Source: Streptomyces sp. NBC_01460 (GTDB lineage Bacteria > Actinomycetota > Actinomycetes > Streptomycetales > Streptomycetaceae). Taken from it: 64,000 bases of DNA. Position numbers and translations under genes: made by a program. Positions 1 to 15,443 of the stretch are shown here, piece after piece (within the stretch, counting starts at the first letter, position 1; each line of letters opens with the position of its first letter). A model generated the notes under the pieces. It did not search any database and was not told the origin of the DNA. It saw nothing but the letters and a program-made list of their open reading frames with translations. The stretch lies in NCBI RefSeq assembly GCF_036227405.1, contig NZ_CP109473.1, positions 1,054,001-1,118,000 on the forward strand, in the 5' to 3' direction.

Positions 1-791
1 CGGTCGGCGCGGACGAACCGGCTGATGTGGACGGGGCTCTGGGCGGCGACGAACGGCCCGCCCGACCAGTCTCCGTGGAGGCTGACCCGTTCGAGTCCGG
101 CTTCGGCCGCGTAGGCCTCGATGTCCTCCGGGGTGGTGAGCCGCGTGATCTCGGTTCCTATCCGGGTGCCGCCGGGCTCGTGCAGCAGGTGTGAGGTGTG
201 CCAGAGCCCCTGTTCGGTGAGGAGCGTGGAGTAGGTCTGGAGCCCGGTCCCTGGTGCGGGGTAGGGCGCGAAGAACGAGGTGCGGCTGAGTCCCTCGTGC
301 AGGGTGTGGACGAAGCCCGGGTTGTGGGTCTCCACCACGAGGGTTCCCCCGGGCGCGAGACGGCGCGCGGCACCGGCGACGGCGGCGCGCTGGCCCGCCG
401 GGTCGAGGACGAGGGACATCGTGCCGCAGACGCAGTAGACGAGTCCGTGGCGGTCGCCGTCGTCGTAGGTGCGGATGTCGCCGTGCACGGGGGTCACGGC
501 GACCCCGGACTCCGCGACGGCGGTCCGCAGCCGTTCGAGCATCTCCGGGGACGAGTCCACTCCGACGACCTCGCCGGTGAGACGCGCGAGCGGTACGGCG
601 ATACGGCCCGTGCCCACCCCGAGTTCGAGGGCGGACCCGCCGGGATGCCAGGCGGCCAGCGCCGCGGCCGTGCGGTCGGCCGAGCCGTCCTGGGGGAAGA
701 GCCGGTCGTAGAAGTCGGCGAAGACCCTGCCGTAACCGATGTCCGCGATCGTGGGGGCGGCGGTGTCCGAGGGTGCGGTCGCGGTGCTCAT
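1..791 (-). CDS. Class I SAM-dependent methyltransferase (3' end outside window)
   Basis: The gene starts at ATG 791 and runs off the left edge after about 263 codons. Motif I (ELGVGTGRIAVPLA, about residues 55-68) and the following acidic loop (VVGVDSSPEMLERL) mark a Rossmann-fold methyltransferase using S-adenosylmethionine. A later CGTMSLVLD-type stretch fits motif IV. Its start overlaps the stop of the upstream small membrane protein by four bases (ATGA), so the two are translationally coupled in the peptide operon. In linaridin clusters the methyltransferase dimethylates the N-terminal amine of the mature peptide; that role here is inference from context. An unrelated small-molecule methyltransferase would look the same by motif. 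Confidence 0.85.
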   Translation of the reverse strand, partial: MSTATAPSDTAAPTIADIGYGRVFADFYDRLFPQDGSADRTAAALAAWHPGGSALELGVGTGRIAVPLARLTGEVVGVDSSPEMLERLRTAVAESGVAVTPVHGDIRTYDDGDRHGLVYCVCGTMSLVLDPAGQRAAVAGAARRLAPGGTLVVETHNPGFVHTLHEGLSRTSFFAPYPAPGTGLQTYSTLLTEQGLWHTSHLLHEPGGTRIGTEITRLTTPEDIEAYAAEAGLERVSLHGDWSGGPFVAAQSPVHISRFVRAD

Positions 792-1396
792 GCCTGCTCG
801 CTTTCTGCCGCCGGAGCGGACGGATGACGCATCGGGGTGTAGGGGGAGACGAAGATGATCTCCGGCTCCTCGGAGTCGTCGTAGCCGGCGTTGCGGGCCA
901 GCGTGAACTGGAAACCCTTGATCCCGGTGGCGCCCGAACGTTCGATGCCGGCCCGGAAGTAGGCGCTCAGGATGCGGTATCCGGGCAGGGTGCGGGCCGT
1001 CGCGAACCCTTTGTCGAGGTGACGCATCACCTCGGTGCCCAGGTCGAAGACGGCCTTCTCGGTCCGGCGGGCGGGGAACCAGACGATCTGGTGGGCCCTG
1101 CGCCCCGCGATGACCTCCACGGGCGCCCAGTCGGAGGTCTCTCCGGCCTCGTCGAGGGTGCGGCAGTAGAACTGGAGATCGTGCTGGGCCGGAGTCGGAG
1201 CGAAGAAGCGCCAGTTCGGGAAGAGCGTGGAGAAGACGTCGAGCCGGGCGAGCCTGCTGAACGTCGGCTGGGGGTGCTGGGCGCAGAGGGTGCCCAGCAG
1301 CAGCAGGCCGGCGAGCAGCCGTACGTGGCCGTCCGGGCCGCCGAAGTGGCGGGCGAGCAGCCGGCCGGCCGGGGCGGCGGAAGCGGTGCCGGTCAT
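788..1396 (-). CDS. Small membrane-anchored protein with NWRFFAPTP motif, putative linaridin maturation partner
   Basis: The protein has 202 residues. ATG 1396 is chosen because it overlaps the upstream stop as ATGA; longer upstream extensions in this frame run over the hydrolase gene. One hydrophobic helix (about residues 25-40, LLAGLLLLGTLC) is followed by NWRFFAPTP near residue 60 and then a soluble domain. The aromatic-FAP motif after a single membrane helix is typical of small partners of HTTM/SdpB-like membrane proteins (SdpA or DUF5819 type). It lies between the HTTM-hydrolase fusion and the methyltransferase with overlapping stops and starts on both sides, so it almost certainly works with them. 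In linaridin terms it would occupy the LinL-like slot, but I cannot prove homology by eye. Confidence 0.6.
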   Translation of the reverse strand: MTGTASAAPAGRLLARHFGGPDGHVRLLAGLLLLGTLCAQHPQPTFSRLARLDVFSTLFPNWRFFAPTPAQHDLQFYCRTLDEAGETSDWAPVEVIAGRRAHQIVWFPARRTEKAVFDLGTEVMRHLDKGFATARTLPGYRILSAYFRAGIERSGATGIKGFQFTLARNAGYDDSEEPEIIFVSPYTPMRHPSAPAAESEQA

Positions 1397-3339
1397 CGGG
1401 CCCCCTCCTGGCCGGCCGTGGCGGAGGGCCGTCCTGCCGTGGCGGAAGGCCGTCCGGCCGTGGCGGAAGGCAGCACGGCCGTGGTGTCGCCGAAGAAGGC
1501 CACGAGTCGGCGGGCCGCCTCGCAGGCGAGCTGCGGGTCGGTCAGGATGCCGTCGTGGTCGGCGGCCTCGACGACGGTGCTGCGGACGGTCCGGCCTTCC
1601 AGGTGCGCGTCGGCGAGGTCCTTGTGCAGGAGCAGGTGGTCGGGGTCCCGGTCGACCGTGTGCTGGGCGGACAGCACCAGGGCGTGGGCGTCCAGCCGGG
1701 GCAGGGGGCCCTCGAAGGACCGGAAGTCCCTTTCCGCGGCCCGCCATTCGCGCAGTGCGGCGGTCCACACGCGATGGTCCGCGTACTCGGCCATCGCCCT
1801 GCTTCGCACCGGGGCGGGCAGGTTCCGGATCCAGCCGGGAGTCTGCATGAGGACGCCGAGGCCCGCCCGCAGGCTGACGGACGTGGAGCGGATCATCTCC
1901 TCGATGTGCCGGGCGTTCGCGCCCTGCTGGCTGGACCGGTCGAGCTGCTGGGGGTGGGAGCTGTCCACGTAGACGACGGAGTGCACCCGCTCGCCGAGCC
2001 GGACTGCCGCCCGTCGGGCGAGCTCACCGCCCAGGGAATGCCCGACCAGCGAGACCTGGCGTCCTTCCGGGACGGCAGCCTCGATCAGGTCGACCAGGTC
2101 GTCCACCGATTCACCCAGGTGGTACGGCGTCGGGGCGTGCCGTCTGCTCGCCCCGTAACCGGCCCGGCTGTAGGCCAGCCACTGGCGTCCCTCGGCGTTG
2201 AGGGCCTTGGCGTACCAGCTGAAGTGCGCGGGCAGGGCGCCGAGGCCGTGCACGAGGACGGCCACCGGGCCCTCCCCCGTCCGGCTGACCGTGCCGTCGT
2301 AGGCCAGTTCGTTGCCGTGGCGGGTGGTGACCGTGGCACCGAACGCGTGATCGGTGGTCCGCAACCTGCGGTGGACCGCCACTACGGCCGCCGCGGCCGT
2401 GGCGCCGGCCAGGAGCAGTGCCGCGGCCGCCGGCATCCGGTCGTCCCGTCCGGCGACGGCGGGGTGGCTGCGGGGCGTGCTGGTGTACGCGACCATCGGG
2501 TGCATCGCGGTGAAGGCCGGAATGAATCTGCCCAGCCCCATGACGGAGCCGTTGGCGACGTGGAAGACCGCGACGCCGGCGATCACCGGGCGGGCCAGCA
2601 GGCCGCCCTTCAGGTACAGCACCGGGAACAGGCATTCCATGGCCAGCACACCGTGGGCGAGGACTCGTGCGGACCGGGGGTGGCGGCGGGTCAGTCGCCA
2701 CACCTTCTCGTGCCCGTAGGTCCTGGTCCGCATGACACCGGTCAGGGCGGAGCCGGTGCGCCAGTCCTTCCCGAGGAGCTTGATCCAGCCGGAGACGACG
2801 TACGACAGGTTGGACTGGAGCGCCACGTACCACACCAGCGCGTCCTGGGCGGCGGGCGAGGGGGCGAGCCGGGCCAGGCCGGTCGCGGTCTGCACCAGGT
2901 TGGACGCCTGGTCGGAGCCGTCCGTGCCGTAACGGTGGGTGGGATAGAGCAGGGCGCCGCTGAGACCGAGGAAGAGATTGGCCGCTCCGCGGGCCCGGCT
3001 GTCGCCCGGCAGCAGGAGAACGGCGCTCGCGGCCACCCGGGCGGCGTGAAAGGACCGGCTGGTCCGCTCGTCGGCGACGAGGTCGAGCAGCTTGCGCAGT
3101 GGCCTGCCGTAGTGGGCGTGCCCGTACCGGGCGAGTGCCCAGTCGTTCAGTCCGCCCGGGCGTTTCTGATCCGGGGTGGTGAGGTGCTCCAGGCTGGACA
3201 GCAGGGAGGTGACGGCGGCGATCCGTTCGGAGGCGCCGATGGCCTGGCTGCGGGAGACGGGCAGGGGACCGGTGAGAGCCGAGAGCGCCGCCCGGGCGGT
3301 GGGCCCGGAGGCTCTGAGCTTGGCGAGGCGAGCGAGCAT
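1393..3339 (-). CDS. HTTM-like membrane domain fused to alpha/beta hydrolase (LinH-like)
   Basis: The protein has 648 residues, with AGGAG placed before ATG 3339. The N-terminal half (about 1-340) is hydrophobic with several membrane segments. It carries features of HTTM/SdpB-type proteins: YGTDGSDQ near 140, and SNLSYVVSGWIKLLGKDW followed by G-ALT near 175-200. The C-terminal half (about 360-625) is an alpha/beta hydrolase: oxyanion strand VAVLVHGLG, nucleophile elbow GHSLGG, and a late EAADHDGIL histidine. Linaridin clusters are reported to need membrane proteins of this kind for Thr dehydration and epimerisation. It follows the four precursor peptides after a 192-bp gap holding a hairpin. 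The C-terminus has a threefold heptad repeat (AGRPSAT) encoded by 21-bp DNA repeats. Confidence 0.7.
   Translation of the reverse strand: MLARLAKLRASGPTARAALSALTGPLPVSRSQAIGASERIAAVTSLLSSLEHLTTPDQKRPGGLNDWALARYGHAHYGRPLRKLLDLVADERTSRSFHAARVAASAVLLLPGDSRARGAANLFLGLSGALLYPTHRYGTDGSDQASNLVQTATGLARLAPSPAAQDALVWYVALQSNLSYVVSGWIKLLGKDWRTGSALTGVMRTRTYGHEKVWRLTRRHPRSARVLAHGVLAMECLFPVLYLKGGLLARPVIAGVAVFHVANGSVMGLGRFIPAFTAMHPMVAYTSTPRSHPAVAGRDDRMPAAAALLLAGATAAAAVVAVHRRLRTTDHAFGATVTTRHGNELAYDGTVSRTGEGPVAVLVHGLGALPAHFSWYAKALNAEGRQWLAYSRAGYGASRRHAPTPYHLGESVDDLVDLIEAAVPEGRQVSLVGHSLGGELARRAAVRLGERVHSVVYVDSSHPQQLDRSSQQGANARHIEEMIRSTSVSLRAGLGVLMQTPGWIRNLPAPVRSRAMAEYADHRVWTAALREWRAAERDFRSFEGPLPRLDAHALVLSAQHTVDRDPDHLLLHKDLADAHLEGRTVRSTVVEAADHDGILTDPQLACEAARRLVAFFGDTTAVLPSATAGRPSATAGRPSATAGQEGAR
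1415..1477 (-). repeat. Three 21-bp tandem repeats inside a coding region
   Basis: Three near-identical 21-bp units (1415-1435, 1436-1456, 1457-1477) encode the heptad AGRPSAT just before the stop of the HTTM-hydrolase gene. The units keep the reading frame, so copy number can vary without breaking the protein or the ATGA overlap with the next gene. It is probably a slippage-derived flexible tail. Confidence 0.85.
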
Positions 3340-3484
3340 GGAAGGTACTCCTGGGCGGAAGTGGGGCAGGGGCGGCCGGCGGCGTGGGCGTCGGCTGGAC
3401 CGGCGACGGGGCGTTCGGCGTGCGGACTGCCCGGATACGGATGCGCTCCGGTGCGGGAGGCCGGTGTCCGGCCGTCCCCGTCCG

Positions 3485-3519
3485 GTCCCGGCCGGGCGGC
3501 ACGCCGCTCCGGCCGGGAC
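3485..3519 (-). terminator. Intercistronic hairpin after the precursor genes (attenuator candidate)
   Basis: A perfect 10-bp inverted repeat (3485-3494 with 3510-3519) encloses a 15-nt loop. It begins 12 bases after the stop of the last precursor gene, and the modification genes begin 146 bases further on. No U-tract follows. In RiPP operons such hairpins let many precursor transcripts end or be stabilised while some read through into the enzymes; that role here is inferred from position. Confidence 0.6.
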
Positions 3520-3531
3520 CGAACGTCTGTG

Positions 3532-3747
3532 TCAGCCGAGGAGTTCGACCTCGATGGGGGGCTCGAGAGGTCCGCCGTCCCGCCCGGCCACGAACGCGTT
3601 CACCAGGGCCACGCCGATGATCACGCCCGACACCACTGCTGGCGTGGCCATGACAGGAGTTTGGGTGGTGATGACCCGGCCCTGCGGGTCGTCGACCCTG
3701 ATATCGGTGAGGGCACCGGGTCGTGTCAGGAAGGAAGTGTCATTCAT
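3532..3747 (-). CDS. Linaridin-like precursor peptide 1
   Basis: This is a 71-residue peptide. ATG 3747 is preceded by GGAGAG. The N-terminal part is polar (LTDIRVDDPQGR). Then comes TPVMATPAVV and a long hydrophobic Val/Ile/Ala/Gly stretch, ending in a short acidic tail. TPVMATPA closely resembles the TPAMATPA at the leader/core junction of the cypemycin precursor as I remember it, which is why I call this linaridin-like. It has no cysteine, so an aminovinyl-cysteine ring is not expected, as in legonaridin-type linaridins. It is the last of four related peptide genes before the hairpin and the membrane hydrolase. Without the family match it would simply be a hydrophobic peptide. Confidence 0.65.
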   Translation of the reverse strand: MNDTSFLTRPGALTDIRVDDPQGRVITTQTPVMATPAVVSGVIIGVALVNAFVAGRDGGPLEPPIEVELLG

Positions 3748-3790
3748 CTGGCTCTCCTTGTCCGTGTTCCGGTTCGAGTGGGGGCCGCGA

Positions 3791-3985
3791 TCACTGCTCG
3801 ACGGGCGACGTGTCGCCGATCGCGTCGCAGACCGCCACACCCGCCACGAAGCCGGCGGCGAACACGGCCGTCGCGAGGACGGGCGTGGCCGCGACGGGGG
3901 CCGTGCCCGTGGTGGTGAAACCGGGGTCCTTCTCGGTCAGGGGGCTTGCCGCGGCCGGGACGGCCTGGAAAACGGCAGCGTTCAT
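3791..3985 (-). CDS. Linaridin-like precursor peptide 2
   Basis: This is a 64-residue peptide with a strong AGGAGG before ATG 3985. The leader-like region contains SPLTEKDPGFTTTG, followed by APVAATPVLATAVF and a hydrophobic run with one internal Cys (AVCDAI) and an acidic tail. The junction P-V-A-A-T-P matches P-V-M-A-T-P of peptide 1, and LTEKDPGF aligns with LSESDAGY of peptide 3, so these are paralogues by duplication. The gap to peptide 1 is 43 bp. The Cys is not near enough to the C-terminus for a cypemycin-type decarboxylated ring, and no decarboxylase gene is visible in the window. Confidence 0.65.
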   Translation of the reverse strand: MNAAVFQAVPAAASPLTEKDPGFTTTGTAPVAATPVLATAVFAAGFVAGVAVCDAIGDTSPVEQ

Positions 3986-4035
3986 GGACTTCCTCCTAGG
4001 GTGTGAAGGTGTGTGGGGCGGTGTCACGGGGTTGT

Positions 4036-4239
4036 TCAGAGCTGCGGCTCGTGGGTGCCGCCGATGCCGCCGGTGCCGTCGATCGCCGGACCGACGACGA
4101 ACTCCGCCACGACGAACTGCACCGAGGCGATCGGGCTCGCGGCCGGACCGGTGTACCCCGCGTCGCTCTCGGACAGGGCGCGCATCGTGACCGCGGTGGC
4201 GGGGCATACGGAGGTCGTCGCCCACCGGGTGCCGGTCAC
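4036..4239 (-). CDS. Linaridin-like precursor peptide 3 (GTG start)
   Basis: This is a 67-residue peptide. GTG 4239 overlaps the TGA of the upstream peptide as GTGA, so translation is coupled and no separate ribosome site is needed. LSESDAGYTGPA parallels the leader of peptide 2. ASPIASVQFVVAEFVVGPAI corresponds to the hydrophobic core of its sisters but is shorter, with a Glu inside it. The tail is Gly-rich (GTGGIGGTHEP). It is the most divergent of the four and may yield a different product or be on the way to loss. Confidence 0.55.
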   Translation of the reverse strand: MTGTRWATTSVCPATAVTMRALSESDAGYTGPAASPIASVQFVVAEFVVGPAIDGTGGIGGTHEPQL

Positions 4240-4421
4240 AGCGAGGGCTCGGTGGTGCTGCCGATGATCGCTCCGGCCGCGTAGGCGACGACCACGGCGG
4301 CGGCGACCGTCACGATCACCTGGGTGGCGGCGATCGGTGCCACACCGCCGAAGGTCTGCCCCTCGGTCCTCTCGTCGAGCGAGCCGACGGCGGCCCAGCC
4401 CGGTGTTCTGACCTGCTGCAT
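4236..4421 (-). CDS. Linaridin-like precursor peptide 4, first gene of the operon
   Basis: This is a 61-residue peptide, with AGAGGAGG ideally spaced before ATG 4421. Residues 1-29 are polar (SLDERTEGQTF). Then APIAATQVIV and an uninterrupted Ala/Val/Ile/Gly stretch of about 25 residues follow, ending GSTTEPSL. The P-I-A-A-T junction matches the other three peptides. It overlaps peptide 3 by four bases. It is the first gene of the operon, so its promoter should lie in 4422-4571; I could not identify convincing -35/-10 boxes there. Confidence 0.65.
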   Translation of the reverse strand: MQQVRTPGWAAVGSLDERTEGQTFGGVAPIAATQVIVTVAAAVVVAYAAGAIIGSTTEPSL

Positions 4422-4571: not shown

Positions 4572-4790
4572 TCAGCTGGCACAAGGCTGCAGGGCTGCCC
4601 GCAGGATGGTGCAGGCGCGGCGCTGCCGCCGCCGACGCGGTGCGGGGAGGGCGGGAACGGCGCATGAGCGGTCGAGAAGGTCGAAAGAGGTTTTCTCATC
4701 GGTGAGCGAACCGAACAGCATCGCGCCGAGCGCGAGCACGCTCACCTCACGCCGGTGGGCGGGGTCGGTGCCTATGGTGCGGTACTTCAT
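4572..4790 (-). pseudogene. Aldo/keto reductase, N-terminal remnant
   Basis: ATG 4790 has a good GGGAGG upstream. The first 40 residues (KYRTIGTDP, VSVLALGAMLFGSLTDEKTS) match the start of aldo/keto reductases, with the glycine-rich first barrel strand. After FDLLDR the sequence turns into unrelated Arg/Pro-rich residues and stops at 72 codons; the family is normally about 300-340 residues. The 3' 85 % of the gene has been lost, apparently where the peptide operon begins, which suggests the operon was inserted here. Confidence 0.7.
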
Positions 4791-9127: not shown

Positions 9128-9520
9128 GACCCCGATCTCGTGTACAGCGCCATCGCGGCCTGCTGGTCCGCCGGCCTGGACACCATGGACGCCTTTCACC
9201 AGGAGCTACGGGACAGCGACTTCGACCTGAACAGGGAAGCCGTTCTGCGCCTCATGAGCCTCCTCGTGGGCACCGGCGCCCATCACATCAAGCTCATCGG
9301 AGCGGAGGTGGACGAGACCGCGCTGAAGGAGACATCGCACGCCACCGAGAGGGCCCTTCGCTTCGCCATCGACTTCCTGAAAGGCGAGTGCTCGATCCCC
9401 CGGTCCGAGATCCTCTCCTCGCCGAACGGCACGACCGTGCCTGCGCTGCTGCTCCATCACCGCTGGCTGACGGACAAGCTGCTCGAACGGCGCCGTTCCG
9501 ATTCCAGCGGCTCGTCACCG
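9128..9520 (+). pseudogene. Internal fragment of an unidentified gene (weak DUF262 resemblance)
   Basis: The plus frame from 9128 reads DPDLVYSAIAACWSAGLDTM, then FDLNREAVLRLMSLLVGTG and RALRFAIDFLKGECSIPRSE, ILSSPNGTTVPALLLHH. The protein-like composition and the RSEILSSPN-x-x-P-x-x-x-x-x-H pattern recall the core of DUF262/GmrSD-type proteins. There is no start codon in context on the left, and it goes out of frame near 9490. It abuts the PIN remnant tail to tail at about 9125, so this point is probably a recombination junction. Confidence 0.4.
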
Positions 9521-9818
9521 ATCAGAGCTACGAGCAGCAGTGGATCCTGCCAGATGGCCGGGAGGTCCACTCGACGGAGGACCGCGGGACGGCTGGATCA
9601 CAGAGGCGAAGTGGACCGGCGGTGACAGAATCGGTGAATGGAGGAGTCCCCGCCCTCATCGAGGACCTCGGAGGCAAGGGGGTCGGCTCTATGGTGTCCA
9701 ATGAATGGGGTGCCGCGCATGTGATGGAAGTGCTGTCCAGGGCCTTCCCCGAGGCCTGTGCCAGCGGGCAGCTGAAGGTGTATCACGTGCCCGGCAACAG
9801 CATGAGTGGAATGAGTTC

Positions 9819-11514: not shown

Positions 11515-12072
11515 TCATGGCGCCAACCTGTCACACGCATCCGACGTCTCGACCGTCTCGGTGAAGGAGACGATCAGACGCTTCATGGCGTCGGCGTCCT
11601 CGTGATCAGAACCGTAGGCCTGAACTCCGGTGTAGAGCTCCTGCTTGTACTTCGCGTCCACGCAGTCCTGTGTCTTGCCGAAGGCCTGGTTGTCGGAATA
11701 CACGTACCGCCCCGCGTCCGCGGTCTTCTCCACTCGCTCGAGGGTCTGACTGCGGAGGAAGTACGCCGTGTCATGCCCGCCCTGCCACCATTTCTGAACC
11801 GTTCTGACAGCGAGCTTTCCGTCCACGGACACATCGCACCAGTTCGCCGAAGGCGAGATGTCGGGCTTGACGGAGAGCTTCTTCCCCGGCGGGAGAAACG
11901 GCGTGAGCTCCTTGGTGTCGAACGGTATGCCGCAGAGGGCGCCTGGCACGGAATAGTCCCTGGTCTCCTCATCGGCGCCACATCCTGTGACCGTGGCAGC
12001 CAAAACGGCGAGAACGACGGCGGCGAAGGCAGGACCGGAATGTGATCCGGAGATCGGTAGGCGGCGGGCCAT
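11515..12072 (-). CDS. Secreted lipoprotein, unknown function
   Basis: ATG 12072 (GAGAGG upstream) gives 185 residues. The signal peptide ends in the lipobox VTGC (Cys about residue 30), so the mature protein should be lipid-anchored outside the membrane. The mature part has conserved-looking Cys residues (LCGIPF, NWCDVSV, DCVDAKY, DACDRL), four after the lipid Cys and so probably two disulphides. Paralogous lipoproteins commonly follow DUF6571 genes in Streptomyces, and here one lies 69 bp downstream of a decayed DUF6571 gene. Function unknown. Confidence 0.8.
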   Translation of the reverse strand: MARRLPISGSHSGPAFAAVVLAVLAATVTGCGADEETRDYSVPGALCGIPFDTKELTPFLPPGKKLSVKPDISPSANWCDVSVDGKLAVRTVQKWWQGGHDTAYFLRSQTLERVEKTADAGRYVYSDNQAFGKTQDCVDAKYKQELYTGVQAYGSDHEDADAMKRLIVSFTETVETSDACDRLAP

Positions 12073-12140: not shown

Positions 12141-13485
12141 CTACCCGGGGTACGGCCGTCGACGATCGACTGGGGCGTTGTAGAAACCCTGTGCGCCGCT
12201 TTCGCGAGCCCACGTCTCGGCGTCCGCGGGGCCGACCATGCCGTGCTCTTCCGCGGCCAGCCGAGCTGCCTGGCCGGACCGGTTGCCGTCGTTCTTCAGG
12301 CCGTCTTGCCAGAGCTCACCCCTCGCGTCCTCGGTATCCTCCAGTTCCGTGCTCTTGAAGTCCTGGAACATGGATTCGAGGACGGTGCCGGTGATGGTGG
12401 TGGTGGCTCCACCCGCGACAGCTCCGATCCAGCGAGTGGCGACGAAGGAGGTTCCTACGCCGACCTCCGTACCGAGACCACCCGAGATACCGCTCTTGAC
12501 CAGGTCCATCGAGTCCTTGTACGCCTCGTCCCTCTCCTTCCCGGCAGCCGCCAGTTCCTCCTGGCGGCCCAGGGCGAGAGTTCCGGAGACCTCCCCCGAC
12601 TTCTCTGCGATTCGGCGCACGACACCTTCCGTGTCGTCGTCCACGACCTGACCGGCAGGCAGATCGGGATTGAGGTGGTACTCCATCAGCTGGCTCATGT
12701 AGGCCTTCTGGCCCACTTCTACCGCCGCGTAGCCGTCCGGGCTCTGGCCCACGGTGAAGTGAACCTTGGTGACGTCTCGCGGCTCGAGTACGGCCTCTTC
12801 CCCGACCACCGGATACATCTTCTTTGTCTGCCCCCACGACGTCGAGTCGGTGTCGGTCCGGTCAGCGCCGCTGATGTACCGACTGATGTCCGGCAGGTAC
12901 TCGGAGGTGATCTGCCCCATGCTGTCGAGCATGTGTCCGTGCTCGAGCAGACGCTTGTCCGGGTCCTCGCCGATGGACGACACGATTCGTTCCATGAGCG
13001 TGGTCTGCTCGGCGTTGTGGTGCGGCGTGTCCAGCGTCGGCAGCTCACCGGCCGGGTGACCTGTGGTGGCGGCCTCGAGGGCCATCGCCAGGTTGTTCCG
13101 TCCTGCGATGCTCTCCTCGTGTTCGGAGTCGTAGTCGGTGGGCCAGTCGCGCTCCTCAAAGAGGTAGTCGAAGTTGGTCAGAGAATTCTTGACCTCCCTG
13201 TCGTCCTTCTTCTCGGTGAAGTCGTGGTCCTCGTCCTTGGTGAGGAAGGTGTCGTTGAAGAAGGATGTCGCGGCGTCCGGGTGGTTGGCGAGAGCCTTGA
13301 GGCACCCCGTCATCGGGTTCCATCCGGTATCCGTACCGGTGTGGTTGAGCGTCGCGTCGGGCCCCAGGCGCTGCAGGCTTCGTGCTGCCCGTTGCCTGTG
13401 AACTTCTTCTCCGTGGCCATGAGCTTGTCGCCGTAGCTGTTCAGGAACTGTCGTCGTAGTCGCCCCAGCGCATCAGGTTGCTCAT
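12141..13485 (-). pseudogene. DUF6571-type protein, N-terminally truncated with two frameshifts
   Basis: The main open part (13313-12141) encodes MTGCLKALANHPDAATSFF, NFDYLFEERDWPTD, AMALEAATTGHPAGELPT, ITSEYLPDISRYI and a C-terminal region with Ala/Gly/Thr stretch WIGAVAGGATTTITGT. These are characteristic of large Streptomyces DUF6571 proteins. Upstream pieces continue the same protein in other frames: MRWGDYDDSS stops near 13441; LNSYGDKLMATEKKFTG and HEACSAWG run to about 13368; and PDATLNHTGTDTGWNPMTG rejoins the main frame. So there are frameshifts near 13443 and near 13368. The usual N-terminal several hundred residues are missing, replaced by a NERD-like gene stub. Confidence 0.75.
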
Positions 13486-14087: not shown

Positions 14088-15443
14088 GTGAAGAAGACGC
14101 TCATCGCCTCCGCCGCCGCACTCGGCGCGCTCGCCGCCGTCACCGGCCCGGCCGCGGCCCCCGCCGCGGCCGCCTCCGACGCCCTGTGGCTCTGGTCCGA
14201 CCCGTACGAGATCACCCTCGCGGGCCCGTCCGAGGACGGCTCCCCCGCACTGTCGCAGTCGCTGACCGTGCAGATCAGCCACGACAACACGGCGACCACC
14301 GTCCCGGCCGGCACGCTCACCGTCGACGCCTCCGGAGTCGCCTCGTTCGCCGAGGTCACCTGGCCCGCGAACTGCCACCCGGAGAACGAGACCACCGCCG
14401 TCTGCACCACCCCCGAACTCCCCGGCGGCGCCAACGCCCCCGCCGCGCGGATCGGCCTGACCACGAAGCCGGGCGCCACCGACGGCAACGACGGCTACGT
14501 CCGCTACACCGCTCAGGCCGGCGGCATGAACGCCTACCCGGGGGAGACCTACGTCGCCGTCAACGACGGCCCCGCGCTCGGCCTCACCCAGGCCGAATAC
14601 CGCACCGGCATGGCACCCGACCAGTCCTTCGACTCCTCCGTCGTCCTCGGCAACCAGGGCAACCGCACCGCCGACCGCACCCTGCTCACCGTCTTCACCT
14701 CCCGCGGCATCCGCCTCGGCATGTCCGTCCCCTCCAACTGCGAGTCCACGAACGCCGTCACCGGCCGTACGTTCCTCTGCGTCCTGGACGAGCGGACGAC
14801 CCCGGGCTCGTACCACTCCCTCCCGCTGAAGTTCCGCACCAAGGACATGGCCCTCTTCGACCGCGTCGACTATTCGGCGCAGCCCTACTCCGAGCAGGCG
14901 CTCGCCGAGGCCCGCACCGGCCGCGCCTTCACCCCGGGCGCCGGCCCGGAGCTGAACCTCACCCCGGCCGCCGCCCCCTCCGACGAGCTCCAGCCGTACC
15001 GCAGCTTCACGGTGAAGACCGTCAACCAGGCCGACTACCGGCTGACCGCCTCCACCGTCTCCGGCGCGGCCGGCGACACCGTCACCGCCACCGTCACCGT
15101 CCACAACGCGGGCCCCGCCTGGGTCGCCTCCCTCGGCGCGGGCGAACCCGCCGCGACCGTCGACATCGACATCCCCGCCGGCACCTCGGTCGCCTCCGCC
15201 CCCGACGCCTGCTGGTCCCAGTCCGAGACCCGCTACCGCTGCAACACCCCCATCTACCTCACCGAATCCGGCAAGCGCGCCACCCACACCTTCCCCTTCA
15301 CCCTCCACATCGACGAGGTCATCCCGAACGCCACCGCCCGCGCCGCCCTCTACAACGACGCCTACGAACCTGCCGTCCGCACCTTCGACCCCGACCTGAC
15401 GAACAACACGGCCACCCTCACCGTCAACCCCTCGACGAGCTGA
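14088..15443 (+). CDS. Secreted protein with DUF11-like beta domains
   Basis: GTG 14088 gives 451 residues starting with a Lys-Lys and a signal peptide (LIASAAALGALAAV, cleavage likely after the Ala-rich stretch about residue 28). The mature protein is Thr/Ala-rich with beta-sandwich-like repeats: VQISHDNTATTVPAGTLTV, then near the C-terminus ASTVSGAAGDTVTATVTVHN and DPDLTNNTATLTV, typical of DUF11/CARDB-like surface domains. Two paired Cys sets are visible. No catalytic motif is seen. It is probably an extracellular structural or adhesive protein. Confidence 0.8.
   Translation: MKKTLIASAAALGALAAVTGPAAAPAAAASDALWLWSDPYEITLAGPSEDGSPALSQSLTVQISHDNTATTVPAGTLTVDASGVASFAEVTWPANCHPENETTAVCTTPELPGGANAPAARIGLTTKPGATDGNDGYVRYTAQAGGMNAYPGETYVAVNDGPALGLTQAEYRTGMAPDQSFDSSVVLGNQGNRTADRTLLTVFTSRGIRLGMSVPSNCESTNAVTGRTFLCVLDERTTPGSYHSLPLKFRTKDMALFDRVDYSAQPYSEQALAEARTGRAFTPGAGPELNLTPAAAPSDELQPYRSFTVKTVNQADYRLTASTVSGAAGDTVTATVTVHNAGPAWVASLGAGEPAATVDIDIPAGTSVASAPDACWSQSETRYRCNTPIYLTESGKRATHTFPFTLHIDEVIPNATARAALYNDAYEPAVRTFDPDLTNNTATLTVNPSTS

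Follow-up and report, generated by a model that had tools for sequence, protein, structure and literature searches.

We describe an operon at the start of a 64,000-nucleotide stretch of the Streptomyces sp. NBC_01460 genome (contig NZ_CP109473.1, positions 1,054,001 to 1,118,000; hereafter the window). It is probably a multi-component operon of the linaridins, a type of ribosomally synthesized and post-translationally modified peptide (RiPP), and would make four related membrane-seeking peptides, the C-terminal tail of which is most likely a cluster-specific address. Coordinates are window positions; base 1 of the window is L004:18001 in the record of its own genome (L004), and other L numbers denote fetched related loci.

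The sequence-only reading had placed four small peptides and three larger proteins on one strand, and all of these open reading frames (ORFs) are present, on the minus strand. Precursor A4 (4236..4421, 61 residues) follows the ribosome site GAGGAGG, contains the hexapeptide PIAATQ and carries the tail STTEPSL after ..AAGAIIG. Precursor A3 (4036..4239, 67 residues) starts with GTG and overlaps the end of the A4 gene by four bases; its hexapeptide is non-canonical (GPAASP) and its tail reads THEPQL. Precursor A2 (3791..3985, 64 residues; ribosome site AGGAGG) has the hexapeptide PVAATP, a single internal Cys and the tail DTSPVEQ, and precursor A1 (3532..3747, 71 residues; AAGGAG) has PVMATP and a longer tail, PLEPPIEVELLG. 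The expected strong ribosome sites or coupled starts are thus in place for the four peptides. Their proposed paralogy also stands: each of the six pairwise alignments outscores all 500 shuffles, and the peptides recur in related genomes. Homologues were sought at LinH loci and, without gene context, in a large protein database, where an A1-type profile finds 53 proteins and an A4-type profile 35. The linaridin hexapeptide PxxxTP is exact in A1 and A2, and its counterparts in A4 and A3 were assigned by eye. The C-terminal residues are Gly (A1), Gln (A2), Leu (A3) and Leu (A4), so that neither Cys nor Thr is found at any of these ends.

The HTTM/alpha-beta-hydrolase fusion, the FFAP membrane protein and the methyltransferase noted from the letters alone were recovered as LinH-, LinL- and LinM-like proteins, with four-base overlaps between the LinH and LinL genes and between the LinL and LinM genes. 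In LinH (1393..3339, minus strand, 648 residues), the N-terminal membrane half resembles annotated HTTM proteins (35%, E 1e-12), with no match to the Pfam HTTM model, and the C-terminal half is an alpha/beta hydrolase, in which GHSLGG starts at residue 433; Ser435 and His595 do not vary among the 26 homologues aligned. Its predicted structure has a mean confidence score (predicted local distance difference test, pLDDT) of 83.7, and the matches listed by Foldseek (50 rows) and by the PDB sequence search (60 of 101) are all hydrolases. Among the LinH homologues listed, the closest is from Streptomyces clavifer (94–95%). LinL (788..1396, minus strand, 202 residues) has the FFAP motif and a weak DUF5819 match below the cut-off, no Pfam or NCBIfam family scoring above it. 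LinM, an S-adenosylmethionine (SAM) methyltransferase (1..791, minus strand), is complete at 268 residues with its last 16 bases left of the window (L004:17985-18791). A transporter had been expected left of base 1, and an ATP-binding cassette (ABC) transporter, LinT, lies there on the operon strand (L004:16138-17988, 616 residues), followed further left by LinE, an oxidoreductase of the flavin/nicotinamide adenine dinucleotide (FAD/NAD) type with a GTG start (L004:14550-16040, same strand, 496 residues). No protease was noticed among the genes read as far as the regulator-like gene RegB, in a reading not aimed at proteases; the operon genes read were all assigned to functions other than cysteine decarboxylase, no decarboxylase model having been run.

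The enzymes connect this operon to linaridin loci. Streptomyces sp. CT34 is the legonaridin strain, and LinL homologues serve to find linaridin clusters (both from PMC9927463). LinL matches the loci of CT34 (29%, E 3e-13), S. noursei (30%, E 3e-14) and S. griseus NCTC13033 (27%, E 1e-7). LinH matches the CypA-family locus of S. griseus (30%, E 2e-30), where its homologue stands directly downstream of a CypA precursor scoring 94.1 bits, and it matches the CT34 locus in two halves (28%, E 1e-26, and 28%, E 1e-7), the protein being split there; in CT34 and S. noursei the LinH homologue follows a weak CypA match (18.7 and 21.0 bits). LinM is 54% identical to a CT34 gene (E 2e-78) and 55% to one of S. 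noursei. LinE is 67% identical to CT34 over 218 residues (E 3e-85), the fetched CT34 stretch beginning inside that gene, and 71% identical to S. noursei over 207 residues; the oxidoreductases mentioned in PMC9927463 are of the short-chain kind, LinE being of the FAD/NAD type. LinT matches the S. griseus locus (30% over 168 residues, E 4e-6), and tblastn gave no match there for LinM or LinE; another methyltransferase-like ORF is present at that locus. We take the CT34 locus compared here to be the one that makes legonaridin, and the S. griseus CypA-family locus to be the one named grisemycin. Since homologues of LinH, LinL, LinM and LinE occur at linaridin loci, we read the operon as linaridin-type without aminovinylcysteine (AviCys) features. 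The sequence-only reading had made its case hinge in part on similarity of the membrane proteins to linaridin enzymes, and that similarity exists, at 27–30%, to the CT34, S. noursei and S. griseus loci; its assignment to the non-AviCys type fits too, because no peptide ends in Cys. From the partner matches, the enzyme set is that of the type B locus of CT34, with a LinH that is fused as at the type A locus of S. griseus.

LinH is uncommon: it was found in 26 of 392 genus genomes (E 1e-60) and in 9 of 394 class genomes (E 1e-100), the genome studied here being included in both. We fetched 82 loci with LinH, at most two of three of them complete on both sides and some ended by contig ends. By tblastn, LinL was found in 79 of these loci, LinM in 63, LinT in 71 (about nine of these matches are only 26–36% identical and perhaps represent other ABC transporters) and LinE in 60 (with a query that carried about 70 extra residues in front). 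Precursors were counted with a profile built from 25 seed peptides, themselves from loci among those scanned, at the 71 loci where 3 kb or more of upstream DNA precedes LinH; a further 10 fall short of this and were left out. Two precursors were found in 37 loci, three in 4, four in 5, five in 2, one in 1 and none in 22, some of the last carrying another kind of precursor. The sequence-only reading had called four cores in one operon unusual, a view that does not hold for this branch, in which 48 of the 71 loci have at least two precursors. The S. anulatus LinH cluster (L072, also L131) has RegA and RegB and, upstream, a large regulator-like frame in place of any visible precursor. The genomes of S. 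griseus NCTC13033 (L080) and CT34 (L051) have two LinH loci each, one found by its CypA-type match and one of the window family; the window-family copy of CT34 contains one TGA within the matched stretch. In L057, the interval between the transporter and oxidoreductase genes encodes two more precursor-like peptides (12395-12836), and a copy of the tandem block described below lies upstream of them (at 11630).

A mark of the window's clade, namely the loci whose LinH is about 63% or more identical to that of the window, is that its precursors run about 5–12 residues past the point where tail-less relatives end. Thus, ..AYAAGRVAG-ELRPM compares with ..GAYAAGKAVG-end, and ..NAFEAGRNCG-ELRPV with ..AAFEAGQG-end. 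One cluster often has one tail on differing cores: THPTLPHA in 3 of 3 precursors of Nocardiopsis flavescens, NVELPM in 3 of 4 of S. griseus, S[ND]T[RK]LPM in 3 of 4 of Streptomyces SID8352, and DPWC/DPGC in 2 of 5 of TRM49041. Among 41 precursors from 10 clusters (two, at L023 9390 and L026 9309, added by eye, and two with hand-corrected starts), the last eight residues score 15.2 within clusters and 1.3 between them, a difference reached in 0 of 2000 permutations; the corresponding values for leader plus core are 56.4 and 52.2 (205 of 2000). The best partner of a peptide lies in its own cluster for 27 of the 41 tails and 10 of the 41 bodies, where chance gives 8%.

The same pattern holds for A4/A1 pairs. 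For 21 such pairs, tail similarity is 17.9 in the own cluster and 3.5 in other clusters (0 of 10,000 permutations), and body (leader plus core) similarity is 53.0 and 50.0 (376 of 10,000); when the pairs are collapsed to 14, the counts are 0 of 10,000 for the tail and 1976 of 10,000 for the body. A selection of 29 tail-less pairs, from loci with two clear peptides, gives 673 of 10,000 for the last eight residues and 7171 of 10,000 for the body. Ten of the 21 pairs come from fetched loci and 11 from groups in a database listing, whose members are presumed to have a common origin; there are 18 such groups, and of the seven unused ones four correspond to loci already in the set, one nearly duplicates the window and two lack an A4/A1 pair. 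L018 and L019, 93–95% identical to the window, were left out of the tail tests, L072 gave no precursor, and the upstream DNA of L022, L075 and L029 is too short. None of the titles and abstracts listed in literature searches concerned shared precursor tails, which we do not put forward as absence from print. Outside the tailed clade and in none of these tests, L052 has two precursor-like peptides (9163-9667) with differing cores and a common 15-residue, Cys-containing end, DACFDAADGGAGVCG, possibly a second, independent case.

The DNA upstream of A4 is conserved as well. An alignment of nine clusters has 31 invariant columns among 327, mostly in one stretch with two GCA-N6-TGC dyads 21–22 bases apart; in the window this tandem dyad, a candidate operator, lies at 4578..4612 on the minus strand, its dyads 22 bases apart. 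A search pattern drawn from that same alignment occurs 14 times in 1.65 Mb (83 records), always in the window's clade and in operon orientation, ten times upstream of precursors and four times between LinT and LinE (L023, L026, L057, L075). In the 8.8 Mb genome studied here the pattern occurs once, at the position just given, and so does a reversed control pattern; a single genome match is therefore no evidence alone, and the evidence lies in recurrence at the same place. Upstream of A4, an ORF at 4572-4790 on the minus strand was considered as a further peptide gene and dropped, its end reading across the DNA conserved in other clusters. Its first 41 residues match L019:332-454 at 98%, about 8 kb from the L019 precursors, and it looks like the start of an aldo/keto reductase (a Pfam search gave no match).

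Two putative regulator genes lie beyond LinE: RegA, on the strand opposite to the operon (L004:13304-14404), and, beyond it, RegB (L004:11359-13236). No Pfam or NCBIfam model passes its cut-off for either, and PADLOC returned nothing for LinH, RegA or RegB; the name regulator is suggested by helix-turn-helix-like and P-loop stretches seen by eye and by a sub-threshold AAA_16 match of RegB (E 0.013), whose predicted structure is too poor for use (mean pLDDT 61.6). RegA is present in 13 of 13 clade loci, a set that includes three without a visible tail (L022, L072 and L075), and in 8 of 66 others; RegA or RegB may bind the tandem block. We also considered RegB as the cause of the tails. It occurs in 9 of the 13 clade loci and 0 of the 66 others, but the case is weak: among the nine, L022 and L072 lack visible precursors and L038 is broken off, L023, L026 and L057 have tails without RegB, and the clade is one lineage.

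Sister clusters encode a further small peptide, ending in NGWQ, that is a candidate pheromone. Its gene lies between LinT and LinE or touches the LinE start in L020, L023, L024, L025, L026, L057 (where the end reads NGWQWE) and L075, follows LinT in L021, in which LinE was not found, and lies upstream of LinH in L033 and L062. The genes end at 15381 (L020), 15213 (L021), 15682 (L023), 15129 (L024), 15649 (L025), 15666 (L026), 12054 (L057), 6431 (L075), 9388 (L033) and 8597 (L062). Eight of these ten follow a transporter gene, and six peptides have a signal-peptide-like start by eye. NGWQ followed by a stop occurs in nine records, and the 23 other orders of these residues in none of the same 1.65 Mb. 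The window, L018 and L019 have no NGWQ peptide and carry instead a coupled ORF of 34–36 residues.

From the observed gene content, homology, paralogy, clade-wide tail covariation and conserved upstream DNA, we infer a chemistry, a cleavage step, an export route and a role for the tail. Each precursor would consist of a leader, a hydrophobic core beginning at about Ala-Thr-Pro and, in the window's clade, the C-terminal tail. Judging from the family, Thr and Ser of the core are probably dehydrated by the membrane pair LinH/LinL. Cleavage of the leader probably falls within the PxxxTP-type hexapeptide, leaving an N-terminal residue that would mostly be Ala and that LinM would dimethylate; LinE would add an oxidative step and LinT would export the products. 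The four mature peptides probably act together as short membrane helices. The tail is most likely an address specific to the cluster and read by one partner, be it a processing enzyme, the transporter or a binding partner in common; it may be cut off at the Gly with which the tail-less sister peptides end. We favor an address because in two thirds of the pairs unrelated cores have the tail in common, because it changes rapidly from one cluster to the next and because it lies beyond the normal end of the peptide. Going further, one may tentatively see in the rapidly changing tail a removable address, or follower, marking the members of a set, so that new cores can join without redesign, in a branch whose switch would consist of the tandem GCA-N6-TGC operator together with RegA/RegB, joined in many members by the small secreted NGWQ peptide; we hold this extended version to be rather doubtful.

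Several points weigh against the proposal. LinH and LinL are only 27–30% identical to the classical loci, and LinT is unmatched in the stretches fetched from CT34 and S. noursei (best E values 2.4 and 1.1). The precursor cores are Thr-poor, compared with seven Thr in corynaridin. The suggested search of the peptides against a linaridin precursor model came out negative: with NCBIfam NF033752 (linaridin_CypA, cut-off 35 bits), A1 reaches 15.0 bits, A2 12.5, and A3 and A4 do not match, and membership failed likewise in a scan of the whole genome, where the control was unmatched too. This model was built for cypemycin relatives and is not treated here as defining the linaridin class; the S. griseus precursor scores 94.1 bits, and those of CT34 (18.7) and S. 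noursei (21.0) fall short of the cut-off. Besides these, no Pfam or NCBIfam family is above its own cut-off for any of the peptides. With respect to the tails, the body has a slight own-cluster excess as well (the 376 of 10,000 given above). The A4 and A1 tails disagree (score 2 or less) in 7 of the 21 pairs, the other 14 scoring at least 15, and in just 9 of the 21 does the best-matching tail belong to the partner from the same cluster. Disagreement is found in the window itself (−2) and in six near relatives, L020, L021, S. nitrosporeus and S. genisteinicus among them, in which A1 has a longer tail. Within the window, the tails of A4 and A3 agree, that of A2 agrees loosely and that of A1 in EP only, and this partial sharing weakens the case for an address.

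The tail pattern could have arisen in other ways. Shared tails might be a mere echo of gene conversion, or of recent duplication within the cluster, with no function of their own, and the codons lend this some credit: at identical tail residues the same codon is used in 117 of 163 cases, somewhat above the 96 expected from codon use (counted over pairs with at least four identical residues, which are not independent), and two L024 tails are identical in DNA. However, many tails have the same residues in different codons, and recent copying of DNA is therefore not a sufficient explanation of the sharing; across species, A4 bodies fall with A4 bodies and A1 bodies with A1 bodies, not with those of their own cluster, hence the paralogues are old; and conversion would have had to stop repeatedly at the border of core and tail. 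We regard this explanation as unlikely. Somewhat less doubtful, though still not what we expect, is that the mature peptides keep their tails, which would determine what partner peptide or target they bind, as in multi-peptide membrane-active systems. Such a role would suit a family in which two or more precursors are common (48 of the 71 loci), and daptides, a class of hydrophobic RiPPs with several peptides, are described as acting together (PMC10036551); yet tail-less sister clusters manage without tails, and the tail starts just where their peptides stop.

Doubts about the class itself carry far less weight. That the peptides are unmodified class IIb-like membrane bacteriocins lying beside an unrelated enzyme set, as a weak match of A4 to the model TIGR03949 might hint (13.2 bits, cut-off 21.5), is very improbable in view of their co-occurrence with LinH, LinL, LinM, LinT and LinE in many species and of the linaridin-type hexapeptide that many of them carry. 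Least credible of all is a daptide-like system. Several hydrophobic precursors are present, and the best NCBIfam match of LinM is indeed the daptide methyltransferase, but its 84.2 bits are below the cut-off of 175, and other methyltransferases of this genome score similarly with the same model (30 matches, the best at 83.3 bits). The peptides lack a C-terminal Thr, LinM shares 54% identity with a gene of the CT34 locus, and LinH and LinL are present. The daptide reading was rejected on the sub-threshold methyltransferase score, the missing C-terminal Thr and the match of LinM to the CT34 locus.

According to PMC9576775, reconstitution of linaridin-modifying enzymes in E. coli was still to be achieved in 2022. 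Operons in which one enzyme set faces several natural cores offer ready-made substrate panels for this question. Should the tail prove to be an address tag, peptide engineering would gain a portable handle, and simple swaps would serve to test leader-independent recognition in linaridins. The conserved upstream block and the NGWQ peptides, in turn, suggest a route to switching on silent clusters.

Among known systems, the legonaridin locus of CT34 shares with the window homologues of LinH (both halves), LinL, LinM and LinE; its precursor, which has PTMITP, likewise lacks a C-terminal Cys. It differs in having one Thr-rich precursor, without a tail, in place of four Thr-poor ones, a LinH that is split and not fused, and no LinT match in the fetched stretch. 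The S. griseus CypA-family locus (grisemycin/cypemycin, type A) has a fused LinH, an FFAP LinL and ATP at the core start, as the window does, whereas its precursor has a C-terminal Cys and neither LinE nor LinM finds a match. Daptides, as presented in PMC10036551, also have several short hydrophobic precursors per cluster, but these have an invariant C-terminal Thr, which the window peptides lack, and enzymes of their own. Corynaridin from Corynebacterium lactis, as described in PMC9927463, resembles the window in its HTTM protein, hydrolase, LinL, ABC transporter and PxxxTP motif (exact in A1 and A2 of the window) and in showing no decarboxylase; unlike the window, it has one precursor with seven Thr, separate genes for the HTTM protein and the hydrolase, no methyltransferase, and a short-chain oxidoreductase where the window operon has the FAD/NAD-type LinE.
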